Source: Desulfobacteraceae bacterium
Lineage (GTDB): Bacteria; Desulfobacterota; Desulfobacteria; Desulfobacterales; JAABRJ01
Reading direction: 5' to 3'
Assembly: GCA_022340425.1 (NCBI GenBank)
Contig: JAJDNY010000048.1
Coordinates: 1-38,310, forward strand
Length of the DNA: 38,310 nt
The position numbers were made by a program, and so were the translations under genes. Of this stretch, positions 1 through 6,275 are shown piece by piece; the first letter of the stretch is position 1, and each line of letters opens with the position of its first letter. The notes below the pieces were generated by a model. It was not told where the DNA came from, searched no databases, and saw nothing but the letters and a program-made list of their open reading frames with translations.

Positions 1-2586
1 GGCCCCGCACCCCAGCTAAAATTGGAAAACGCGGCGCTGCGGCTGGCTGATCTGGCTTTCAGCCTGCCGGAGGCCGGACAGCCGTTTTTCGAACTGCAAG
101 CCGCCGAAGCGCGCGGCGCCAGCTTTGACCTGGACGCCCGACAGCTGGCGGTCGAAAAGCTGGAGATCAGCCGCGGCAGGGCGACGGCGGCCGTGACGGC
201 CGACGGCACGCTGGACCTGCAGCGAATCGTCGGCAGTGGGTCTGCCGGCGGCGCCCCCCAGGACTCACCCGCTGCCGCAGACAGCCGGCCCTGGGCCTTT
301 GGCATCAAGACGATCGCAATCCGGGAGATGGCGCTCGCCTACCGCGACGACCGCCGCACCCCGGCCGTCGCGGCGGAAATTGGCGCCTTCGGGGCCAACC
401 TGGCCCTGGACGGGGGCTTTGCCGCCGGAGAGCCCGAGCTGCGGCTGGAACCCATCGCCGCTGAACTGGCGGATATTCGGCTGTCCGCCGACCAATCCGA
501 CCCGGTGCTGAAGGTGGCCCGCCTGGCGGTTGCGGAGGGCGCCTTTGACCTGGGCGGCCGGGCCTTCACGGCGTCGCGCATCGGCCTTGCGGGCGGGGAG
601 GTCGACCTGGTCCGCGACCGGGAGGGCCAGATCAACCTGGCCCTGCTGCTGGCCGAGCGCGGTGCGGTGGGTCGTGGCGTTGAAGAGGCGGCCCAGGCCG
701 GCACCCCCTGGCAGTTTGCGTCCCAGACCATTGAGCTGTCGGGTTTCGCCGTGGCCATCCGCGACCAGACCGTGAAGCCCGAGGGCGCGCTGATCACCCT
801 CGACCCCCTGAACGTCACCTTGACCGGGGTGGACGGCAAATCCCCGACCGCCTTCGCCGTCGACCTCAAGGTCCGCCAGGGCGGCGCGGTCACGGTCCAG
901 GGCAGCGCCGATCCCTCCAAAAAAACGGTGGGCGCAGACGTCCAGGTGGTGGACCTGGCCCTGCCCCCCTTTCAGCCCTACCTCGATCCCGTCGTGAGGC
1001 TCAACCTGGATTCCGGCACGTTCTCCACCCAGGGCCGGCTGGATTATGCCCCGAGCGCCGAAAAGGGGGAGCTGGCCTACGACGGCGGCTTCGACCTGGC
1101 CAAGCTGGTGCTCACCGAGCCCGGGGTCAAGGACACCTTTCTCGGCTGGCGAAATTTGAAAACCTCCCAGCTCAAATTGCGGCTGAAACCCGATCGGGTC
1201 GAAATCGACGCGCTCAACCTGGTCCGGCCCGTGGGCAAACTGATCATCGCCGAAGACCAGTCCGTCAACGTGGCCACGGTGTTCAAAAAGCCGGAAGGCG
1301 GAGCGCCGCCAGCCGCCACGGCAAAGGGCGGCCAGAAAATCTTTCCAGTCAAAATCCGCAAAATCCGGGTCCAGGAAGGCGACCTGACCTTTGCCGACCT
1401 GAGCCTGGTCATTCCCTTTGCCACCCAGATCCACCGCCTCACGGGGGTGATCATCGGGACCTCCTCGGCCAAGGATGCCCGCGCCCAGGTCGACTTGAAC
1501 GGCCAGGTGGACGAATACGGCACCGCCCGCATCGGGGGTGAAATCAACGTCTTCGACCCCACAGGCTTCACCGACGTCGAGATGCGCTTCAAGAACCTGG
1601 AGATGGCCAACCTGACGCCCTACTCGGGCCAGTTCGCCGGCCGCAAAATCGATTCCGGCAAGCTCTCCCTGGAACTGCTTTACAAGATCGACAACAGCCA
1701 GCTTTTGGGCGACAACCAGATCGTGGTGGACCGTCTCAAGCTGGGAGCCCGGGTGGAGAGCCCCAAGGCGGTCAACCTGCCGCTTGACCTGGCCGTCGCC
1801 CTGCTGGAGGACCGCAACGGGGTGATCGACATCGGCTTGCCGGTCAAGGGCGACCTGAGCAACCCCGAGTTCAGCGTGGGGCACCTGGTCTGGAAGGCAT
1901 TCGTCAACCTGATCACCAAGATCGTCACCTCGCCCTTCAGCGCCCTGGGCGCACTGCTGGGCGGGGAAACCGAAAATCTGGACATCGTGGCTTTCGAACC
2001 CGGCAAAAGCGAGGTGCCGCCGCCGGAGGCGGAGAAGCTGCAGCAGCTGGCCCAGGCCATGCAAAAGCGCCCCCAGCTCAAACTGGTGGTGCAGGGCCGC
2101 TTCAGCCCCCAAAAGGACGGCGAGGCGCTGCAAAACCTGGCGCTGCGCCGCGCCCTGGCCGCCTTCTCCGGCGACCGGGAGCTGGCCCCGGAGGAGGACC
2201 CCGGTCCGGTGGACTACAGCGACCCTGATACCCAACGGCGGCTGGAGAAGATGTTCCGGGAGCGCTTCGGGCGGCAGGCCCTGAAGGACTTCATGGCAGG
2301 CCTTGAGCCCCCGACCGGCAAAGCCCCCGCCGCCGGGCAGGAGGCCGCCCCCGACCCGGGACTGGTTTCCAAGGCGCTTTTCGCCCGCCTGGCGGCCGCG
2401 GAGGCCCTCCCCGAAACCGCCCTGCCCGCTCTCGCGGCCGCCCGGGCCGAGGCCATCGTCGCGCGGCTGACCACCGACGGCGGGATCGCAGCGGACCGCG
2501 TGACCACCAAAAACCCGGAGCCGGCGGGCGAGGAGGCCCCGGTGACCTCCAAGCTAACCCTGGATATCGTCCAGAAACCGTCGTAG
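1..2586 (+). CDS. DUF748/AsmA-like large envelope protein, 5' end missing
   Basis: The reading frame is open from the first base of the window, so the true start lies upstream; the TTG at 22 is only the first start-like codon and has no ribosome site. About 861 residues are visible, ending at TAG 2584-2586. The sequence is built of repeated beta-rich segments typical of DUF748 proteins, which belong to the AsmA-like group of envelope-spanning proteins. Near the C-terminus a stretch with the motif VAFEPGKSE and the following Pro/Glu-rich helix resembles the OmpA-like end seen in this family. Ala/Glu-rich low-complexity sequence follows. No membrane anchor is visible, because it would lie in the missing N-terminus. 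The exact role is unknown; AsmA-like relatives act in envelope assembly or lipid transport. The gene is followed by a good hairpin terminator. Confidence 0.8.
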   Translation, partial: GPAPQLKLENAALRLADLAFSLPEAGQPFFELQAAEARGASFDLDARQLAVEKLEISRGRATAAVTADGTLDLQRIVGSGSAGGAPQDSPAAADSRPWAFGIKTIAIREMALAYRDDRRTPAVAAEIGAFGANLALDGGFAAGEPELRLEPIAAELADIRLSADQSDPVLKVARLAVAEGAFDLGGRAFTASRIGLAGGEVDLVRDREGQINLALLLAERGAVGRGVEEAAQAGTPWQFASQTIELSGFAVAIRDQTVKPEGALITLDPLNVTLTGVDGKSPTAFAVDLKVRQGGAVTVQGSADPSKKTVGADVQVVDLALPPFQPYLDPVVRLNLDSGTFSTQGRLDYAPSAEKGELAYDGGFDLAKLVLTEPGVKDTFLGWRNLKTSQLKLRLKPDRVEIDALNLVRPVGKLIIAEDQSVNVATVFKKPEGGAPPAATAKGGQKIFPVKIRKIRVQEGDLTFADLSLVIPFATQIHRLTGVIIGTSSAKDARAQVDLNGQVDEYGTARIGGEINVFDPTGFTDVEMRFKNLEMANLTPYSGQFAGRKIDSGKLSLELLYKIDNSQLLGDNQIVVDRLKLGARVESPKAVNLPLDLAVALLEDRNGVIDIGLPVKGDLSNPEFSVGHLVWKAFVNLITKIVTSPFSALGALLGGETENLDIVAFEPGKSEVPPPEAEKLQQLAQAMQKRPQLKLVVQGRFSPQKDGEALQNLALRRALAAFSGDRELAPEEDPGPVDYSDPDTQRRLEKMFRERFGRQALKDFMAGLEPPTGKAPAAGQEAAPDPGLVSKALFARLAAAEALPETALPALAAARAEAIVARLTTDGGIAADRVTTKNPEPAGEEAPVTSKLTLDIVQKPS

Positions 2587-3473: not shown

Positions 3474-3710
3474 ATGAACGTCACCGTGAAGTGTTTTGCC
3501 ACCCTGGCCGAAGCCGACAGTTGCGACTACCGTGACAGCACCCCCTACGAACTGCCCGCCGGCGCCGCCGTCAAGGACTTGATGGCGCGGATAAACGTTG
3601 CCGAGGACCAAGTCAAGCTGGTGTTCATCAACGGGAAAAAAGTCGAGCCCAGCGCCCGGCTGGCCGACGGCGACCAGGTGGGACTGTTTCCGCCGGTGGG
3701 GGGGATGTAG
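3474..3710 (+). CDS. MoaD/ThiS family sulfur-carrier protein
   Basis: This is a 78-residue beta-grasp (ubiquitin-like) protein. Members carry a C-terminal thiocarboxylate used to make molybdopterin, thiamine thiazole, cysteine or other sulfur compounds. The N-terminal strand, the central LVFINGKKVE stretch and the terminal LADGDQVGLFPPVGG motif fit the family. AAGGAGAG (3461-3468) lies five bases before the ATG. The protein ends Gly-Gly-Met rather than Gly-Gly, so one residue would have to be removed before activation. It lies 56 bases upstream of the selenoprotein and probably shares its transcript. No E1-like (MoeB/ThiF) or large-subunit gene is nearby, so the recipient pathway is unknown. 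Confidence 0.85.
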   Translation: MNVTVKCFATLAEADSCDYRDSTPYELPAGAAVKDLMARINVAEDQVKLVFINGKKVEPSARLADGDQVGLFPPVGGM

Positions 3711-3766: not shown

Positions 3767-4303
3767 ATGGAACAAGACCATCGCAGCGCGCCAAATCCCA
3801 TTGTCACGCTGGCAGACGGCGCCCAGACCCACCTCAGCCGGCTGTGGCAGGACCAGCCGCTGGTCCTCGTCTTTTTGCGGCATTTCGGCTGACCGTTTTG
3901 CCGCGAGCAGGTGGCGCAGTTGCGCCGCGCAAAGCACCGCTTCGACCAGGCCGGCGCCCGGGTTGTGCTGGTGGCCATGGGCACCCCGGCGGAATCCAAC
4001 GTTTTCGCCCGGGAACAGGCAATCCCGTTTGAGATGGTCTGCGATCCGGAGCGAAAGGTGTACCAGGCCTTCGACCTGGAGCAGATCACACCCCGGGGGT
4101 TTCTCAGGCCATCCGTCGCCCTGAAGGGGGTCATGGCCATGGCCAGAGGGCACGGCATCGGTCTCCCGGTGGGGGATGTGCGCCAGCTGCCGGGGGTTTT
4201 CATCATCGACCCCAGCGGCACGATCGTCTTCAGCCACTTCGCCGCCGACCCGGCCGATCACCCGGCGCCGGAGGAGATCCTAACGGCGTTGGCCGCGGTC
4301 TGA
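3767..4303 (+). CDS. Selenocysteine-containing peroxiredoxin-like protein (AhpC-TSA_2 type), TGA read through
   Basis: The frame starts at ATG 3767 (AGAAGGG seven bases upstream) and reaches TAG-free sequence interrupted only by TGA at 3890-3892, then continues in the same frame to TGA 4301-4303. Reading the internal TGA as selenocysteine gives 178 residues, with Sec42 in the motif FLRHFG-U-PFCREQ. This is a UxxC version of the CxxC redox site of peroxiredoxin-like thioredoxin-fold proteins (AhpC-TSA_2, related to SelU/PRXL2). Conserved family features continue after it: the VVLVAMG strand, FLRPS, and the GVFIIDPSGTIVFSH motif close to the C-terminus. Sequence on both sides of the TGA is conserved-looking coding sequence, which argues against a pseudogene. 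A candidate SECIS hairpin lies at the expected distance. Likely a thiol/selenol peroxidase or reductase. Conventional callers would truncate it to start at GTG 3911. Confidence 0.85.
3890..3926 (+). promoter_or_regulatory. Sec-coding TGA with candidate bacterial SECIS hairpin
   Basis: TGA occupies 3890-3892. Downstream, GGCGC (3913-3917) pairs with GCGCC (3922-3926) around an AGTT loop that begins 25 bases after the TGA. Bacterial SECIS hairpins sit immediately downstream of the UGA, with an apical loop roughly 16-37 bases away carrying a G in its first two positions; both criteria are met. The lower stem was not folded computationally. Confidence 0.6.
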
Positions 4304-4832: not shown

Positions 4833-6080
4833 TCACCGTGGCGGGTCCTCCTTCCCAGCCTCCGGGGCCGCCCCCTTCCCTTTCAGAAGCGCCAGCGCCA
4901 GGGGCCCCACCGCGCTTCCCAGGCCCATGACGACAAAGGCCGCACCCCAAGCCAGGGTGGGGGTGCCCTGCAGAAGATCCAGGGCAAGGCCTGTCGCCAG
5001 CGGCCCCAGAAAGGCCGCCGTGAACCCCAGGGTGGAATGCACCGCCAGCGTTGCGCCGCGGCCGCCGGCCGGCGCGCTGGCCACCGCCCCGGCGGTCAGC
5101 GAGGCCGAGTCCCCCAGCACGGCAACCCCGTAGAAAAGCGCCAGAGCCACCACCACCCCATAGGGCAGCGGGGCCGCGAAGCCGACCCCGAAGCCCAGCA
5201 GGGCCGAGACCAGCATGATGGCGACAATGGTCTTGGGCCGCCCCAAGCGCCGGCAGAGCTCGTTTCCGCCGATGCTGGCGGGCAGGCCGATGAGATTCAC
5301 CAGGGCCACCACCTGGGTGGGGCTCAAGCCGGCCGCACCCCCAGGCTGCAACTGGCGGCTGAATGCCAGAAAGGCCACCATCCAGGAGCGCAGGCTGAAG
5401 AGCTCCCACATGTGGGCGGCATAGCCTAGGATGTAGGCCATGGCCTGCCGGCTGCGCAGCACCACCGCCAGACCGGCGGCGAAGCGGGGGGCGGCCAGGT
5501 TCCTGTCCACCCGCCCGGGGGGGGCGCCGAACCCCGCCAACAGCACGCCCGCCAGGGTCAGCAGCCCCGAGGCGGCGAAGGCCCAGCGCCAGCCCAGGGC
5601 CGCGTGAACCTCGCCGGCCAGCAGGTAGGAGAGGCTCGCCCCGACGCTGAAAGATGCCGTGTAGAAGGAGACGTAGCGCGATTGGCGCGGCCCCGCGACA
5701 TGGTCGCTCAGGAGCTTCAGCCCCGGCATGTAGACGCCGGCCAGACTGACCCCGGCCAGAAAGCGGAAAACCAGCGCCGACCAGAAGCCCTCTGCCAGCC
5801 AGGCAAAGCCCAGCGCGGCCGCGACCCCGGTGAGCAGCCCGAAAAGCAGGATCCCGCGGGCGTCACGCCGGTCGGTCAGGACGGTCAAAAGCGGCACCGC
5901 GAGCACATAGGCCCCGTAGTAGACCGCGCTCAACCAGCCGGCCTGGACGTTGCTCAAGCCCCAGGCCTCGAGAAAAAAGGGCAGCAGCGCGGCAAAGGTC
6001 GCCAGCCCCGCCAGCCCGAGGATTTCCACCCCGCAAAGCAGCAGGGTCACCCCCAGCGGCGCTCTGGGCTCATCTGGCAT
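4833..6080 (-). CDS. MFS transporter
   Basis: This is a 415-residue protein with about 12 hydrophobic segments. The loop between segments 2 and 3 carries LLTVLTDRRDARGILLFG, the MFS signature region, and the segment 4-5 region FRFLAGVSLAGVYMPGLKLL is typical of drug/metabolite MFS carriers. The ATG at 6080 is preferred over a TTG at 6107, because the extra nine residues are Arg-rich and have no ribosome site. Substrate cannot be assigned. It is transcribed leftward; a short gap separates it from the orphan membrane protein upstream. Confidence 0.85.
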   Translation of the reverse strand: MPDEPRAPLGVTLLLCGVEILGLAGLATFAALLPFFLEAWGLSNVQAGWLSAVYYGAYVLAVPLLTVLTDRRDARGILLFGLLTGVAAALGFAWLAEGFWSALVFRFLAGVSLAGVYMPGLKLLSDHVAGPRQSRYVSFYTASFSVGASLSYLLAGEVHAALGWRWAFAASGLLTLAGVLLAGFGAPPGRVDRNLAAPRFAAGLAVVLRSRQAMAYILGYAAHMWELFSLRSWMVAFLAFSRQLQPGGAAGLSPTQVVALVNLIGLPASIGGNELCRRLGRPKTIVAIMLVSALLGFGVGFAAPLPYGVVVALALFYGVAVLGDSASLTAGAVASAPAGGRGATLAVHSTLGFTAAFLGPLATGLALDLLQGTPTLAWGAAFVVMGLGSAVGPLALALLKGKGAAPEAGKEDPPR

Positions 6081-6275
6081 GGCCGCCCGGCCCCGGCGTG
6101 AGGTCAAAGAGGTCGCTGGGTGACCTACGCCTGGTTTTGGGGGGAAATATCGGCCTCCGGAAAGATGAGCTTGGCCCCGGTGGGAGCCCGAAAGGTGCTA
6201 GCGAGCATTGGGAGAGGGGCTTTGAGAATTTTGGGAATATCATCGCAGTTGTCGCTGGACTGGCTATTTGTTGAT

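Follow-up and report, generated by a model that had tools for sequence, protein, structure and literature searches.

The window, that is, the whole stretch of 38,310 nucleotides that was analysed, comes from an uncultured, sulfate-reducer-like bacterium and very probably contains at 3767-4303 a gene for a SelL-related/Prx-like oxidoreductase of the thioredoxin fold, in which selenocysteine (Sec) 42 is inserted at the UGA at 3890-3892 through the hairpin at 3911-3928. The support is strong and comprises the reading frame, the position of the codon, its conservation, the covariation of the SECIS hairpin and the presence of selA, selB and selD, all of them observed, together with a predicted fold; from these we infer the insertion of Sec itself. 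The gene is ordinary in kind, one more member of a selenoprotein family that was known before. Its features are as follows.

3767-4303, plus strand: SelL-related/Prx-like UxxC selenoprotein gene, 178 amino acids with Sec42 and then the terminal TGA; matches to NF040769 and PF00578, with homologues spanning residues 1-178.
3890-3892, plus strand: in-frame TGA read as selenocysteine 42 of the U-P-F-C active site; TGA in 26/26 close homologues, TGC or TGT in other phyla.
3899-3901, plus strand: Cys45 codon (TGC), which gives the second residue of UxxC; Cys in most members of the UPFC class, Ala or Ser in other Sec members.
3911-3928, plus strand: bacterial SECIS hairpin with a 7-bp stem GUGGCGC/GCGCCGC and the loop AGUU at 3918-3921, G in loop position 2; recognised by covariation, an invariant TTG codon and published bSECIS criteria.
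4301-4303, plus strand: terminal TGA, regarded as the true stop; read by eye, the homologue alignments ending about here.

The frame from the ATG at 3767 to the TGA at 4301-4303 has a single interruption, the TGA at codon 42, placed in the active-site context FLRHFG-U-PFC. The hairpin found after the terminal TGA has no G in loop positions 1-2. The open reading frame listed in the same frame under table 11 has 130 amino acids and a GTG start and covers 3911-4303; since this mechanical call begins behind the active site, the active-site enzyme would be lost in an annotation that lacks a Sec model. The earlier note on this DNA had claimed that the coding frame runs on past the TGA, and comparison with a relative of the same genus agrees, with dN 0.111, dS 0.334 and dN/dS about 0.33 for the part 3' of the TGA; judged from these substitution rates, that part is under purifying selection within the genus. 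The relative appears to be Desulfobacteraceae bacterium S07.Bin054 (L025), the protein sequence being identical to L037.

A homologue was identified in 39 of 146 relatives, most of them with exactly one internal TGA. Within the order, a close homologue is present in 26 of 389 genomes; all 26 have exactly one internal TGA, and it is always the codon for position 42. Homologues from Armatimonadota, Thermomicrobiota, Bacteroidota and other phyla have TGC or TGT at the same position. The invariant columns of a 36-member alignment are R38, H39, G41, position 42 (Sec or Cys) and G143, so the TGA does stand at the first redox Cys of the family, as had been proposed, and homologues carry Cys or Sec at position 42 throughout. 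A sequencing error for TGC or TGT, also raised earlier, is excluded because the TGA is common to 25 other genomes, including the one of the same genus at 82% protein identity. More generally, the idea that the TGA arose by such an error or by a pseudogene mutation has next to no probability: the Cys at position 42 of distant homologues would suit it, but it is already refuted by the same TGA in 26 close homologues from separate genomes, accompanied by a SECIS that is absent from the Cys forms.

In the hairpin, 3911-3917 pairs with 3922-3928; counting from the first base behind the TGA, the stem begins at base 19 and the AGUU loop at base 26. The hairpin with a G-containing loop described in the earlier note is thus real, but its start had been set at 25 bases after the TGA, which is incorrect. 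Published criteria for bSECIS elements comprise a loop of 3-9 nt, a stem of 4-16 bp, a G in the first two loop positions, a distance from UGA to loop of 16-37 nt and an energy of at most -7.5 kcal/mol (PMC13188914). The hairpin at 3911-3928 lies within all of these limits, with a loop of 4 (AGUU), a stem of 7, a spacing of 25 and -12.3 kcal/mol. On the single sequence it is moderately above chance, given that the folding energy of the stretch alone is not unusual (z = +0.66) and that an equally good hairpin appeared in 81 of 5000 synonymous re-draws.

The comparative evidence, drawn from alignments, is decisive for the SECIS. The AGUU loop is found at the same place in all 26 close homologues, and among them 91.8% of the cells of the stem are paired, compared with 14-65% once the partner strand is slid. 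Compensatory changes were identified at four of the seven stem pairs (among them C-G to U-A, seen in seven genes), and the covariation score of the stem was reached by none of 500 shuffles. The Leu codon of the loop is TTG in 26/26 genes, which are related and do not count as 26 independent events, against 16% of Leu codons elsewhere in the same genes; the codon is set by the AGUU loop. At the allowed positions, none of the Cys homologues has a hairpin that comes near this one in strength, and in one of them (L026) the peptide VAQLR is kept whereas the stem pairing is not. The comparison illustrates cleanly how a SECIS is maintained through covariation and codon choice.

The Sec machinery of this genome comprises selA (594.6 bits), selB (367.5 bits) and selD (378 bits), all over the cut-off. 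The selD gene (L024; contig C8 of this genome, 10234-11160, minus strand) has an in-frame TGA of its own in the context GAG-U-ASK, in line with the UxxK motif given for Sec-type SelD (PMC13188914). It is a second selenoprotein gene of this genome. That the TGA at codon 42 is read as another amino acid, such as Trp by code reassignment or by near-cognate read-through, is extremely improbable: nothing specific speaks in its favour, the invariant position holds Cys and never Trp in homologues, the SECIS is conserved, the Sec machinery is present and the terminator of the gene itself is TGA.

A search of the genome for selABCD, as had been suggested, gave the three genes above and left out selC, the gene of tRNA-Sec. 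It was not found in the own draft assembly (209 contigs, 97.7% complete) with the Rfam model, the selC of a relative as DNA query or anticodon and T-loop patterns, nor beside selA, selB or selD of this genome in local scans. Model, DNA query and patterns also failed to find it in the draft of the same genus (about 560 contigs, 84% complete). Pattern matches were unconvincing by eye; the weak RF01852 matches in the own genome are tRNA-Ser, Arg, Leu, Trp and Tyr, not tRNA-Sec; and a "tRNA-Ser" called by ARAGORN at 5512-5600 (minus strand) lies inside a 424-aa open reading frame (4833-6107, minus strand) and was taken as a false positive.

A selC match over the Rfam cut-off was obtained in 24 of 30 genomes, the own genome being included in the 30, and ARAGORN called tRNA-SeC at 20/20 selC loci retrieved from relatives. 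At most of these 20 loci selC, which in relatives has 98 nt and hardly varies within the order, adjoins an M20 peptidase-like gene, named from its sequence. A search of seven genomes that had yielded no full-length selC did not recover this neighbour either; it had no positive control. An assembly gap is the likeliest reason for the missing selC: a region lost from the drafts fits, neither selC in full length nor the M20 peptidase-like gene having been found in these seven genomes. It is very unlikely that the genus decodes Sec with a tRNA-Sec too divergent for the Rfam model, the DNA query and the patterns, selA, selB and selD being ordinary. Just as unlikely is a recent loss of tRNA-Sec, and with it of TGA reading, that would make the gene at 3767-4303 a decaying relic; the failure to find selC in either genome of the genus, and its neighbour in the seven genomes by the uncontrolled search, would agree with such a loss. 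However, selA, selB and selD are intact, SelD has an in-frame TGA itself, and both the SECIS stem and the frame behind the TGA have been preserved in the two species (82% identity, dN/dS 0.33); moreover both genomes are fragmented drafts, in which the joint absence of selC and its neighbour fits one missing contig.

The Sec42 protein matched NF040769 (NCBIfam, SelL-related redox protein) with 172.6 bits, over the curated cut-off of 120, and Pfam families PF00578 (72.8 bits) and PF13911. NF040769 was matched at E <= 0.001 by 36/36 members of the Sec/Cys alignment. The label AhpC-TSA_2 used earlier was too broad, the narrower family being NF040769. The protein shares with this family the full-length match over the cut-off, the FLRHFG-(U/C) core and the Sec found in many of the members examined, and differs in nothing essential. 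SelL itself has two Sec in a UxxU motif, whereas the motif of this protein, UPFC, combines one Sec with C45. It is not a typical Sec peroxiredoxin (TxxU) either, as HFGU is followed by PFC and no T stands three residues before U. With PF00578 at 72.8 bits and the motif UPFC, it falls by domain and motif with the Prx-like UxxC thiol:disulfide oxidoreductases, which carry the same PF00578 and UxxC and are reported from Deltaproteobacteria; their representative is WP_010940744.1 (PMC13188914, Table 1). The same table gives a cd02970 peroxiredoxin-like family protein with UxxS, of the same superfamily, which resembles the lone-Sec (UxxA/S) relatives, whereas the gene at 3767-4303 keeps Cys45. The earlier statement that Sec-UxxC members are known holds: Prx-like UxxC selenoproteins were already counted as known in 2005 (PMC1088965), were listed for deltaproteobacteria in 2006 (PMC1794560) and are included in a 2026 review (PMC13188914).

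The AlphaFold2 model, with Sec modelled as Cys, has a pLDDT of 93.8 and a pTM of 0.90. Its fold comes nearest to the solved ones of Bcp/PrxQ peroxiredoxins, ResA and human prostamide/PGF synthase. The best sequence match among solved structures is human prostamide/prostaglandin F synthase (PDB 9us9/9usa), a distant protein (23% identity in the structural alignment) of the same fold; its C44/C47 align with U42/C45, with Cys there and Sec here. The natural reading is a Sec-based thiol/peroxide reductase that would work through a U42-C45 selenenylsulfide. SelA and SelD would make the amino acid on tRNA-Sec, and SelB bound to the 3911-3928 hairpin would bring Sec-tRNA-Sec to the ribosome at the UGA. 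Sec42 lies just before helix 43-54 of the model and would there attack the substrate, either a peroxide or a disulfide. Cys45 would resolve the resulting selenenyl intermediate by forming the U42-C45 selenenylsulfide, which a thiol donor would then reduce.

Many relatives (L047-L065, L114 and L115; for example L051 at 1492-2028, minus strand) keep Sec but carry Ala or Ser where the second Cys would stand, with UxFA, UPIA and UVFS motifs; Cys45 would therefore not be essential in the family. On the tree, Sec members that mostly have UxxA/S motifs form a second lineage, and one UPFA member lies inside the UPFC class. Apparently the second Cys was lost with Sec retained more than once on this tree. 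Such relatives make the need for Cys45 testable. Two SECIS registers are found in this one protein family: the AGUU loop at the 26th base in the UPFC class (3911-3928 in the window), and in the other Sec class (L048-L065) a loop at the 17th or 18th base after the UGA, with a stem of the GGCAGC/GCUGCC type. No conserved neighbourhood was obvious in the flanking open reading frames of 21 loci, compared without homology analysis. Directly upstream of the gene, at 3474-3710 (plus strand), a ThiS/MoaD-like small ubiquitin-fold protein was identified, which ends in PVGGM, one residue past the usual Gly-Gly end.
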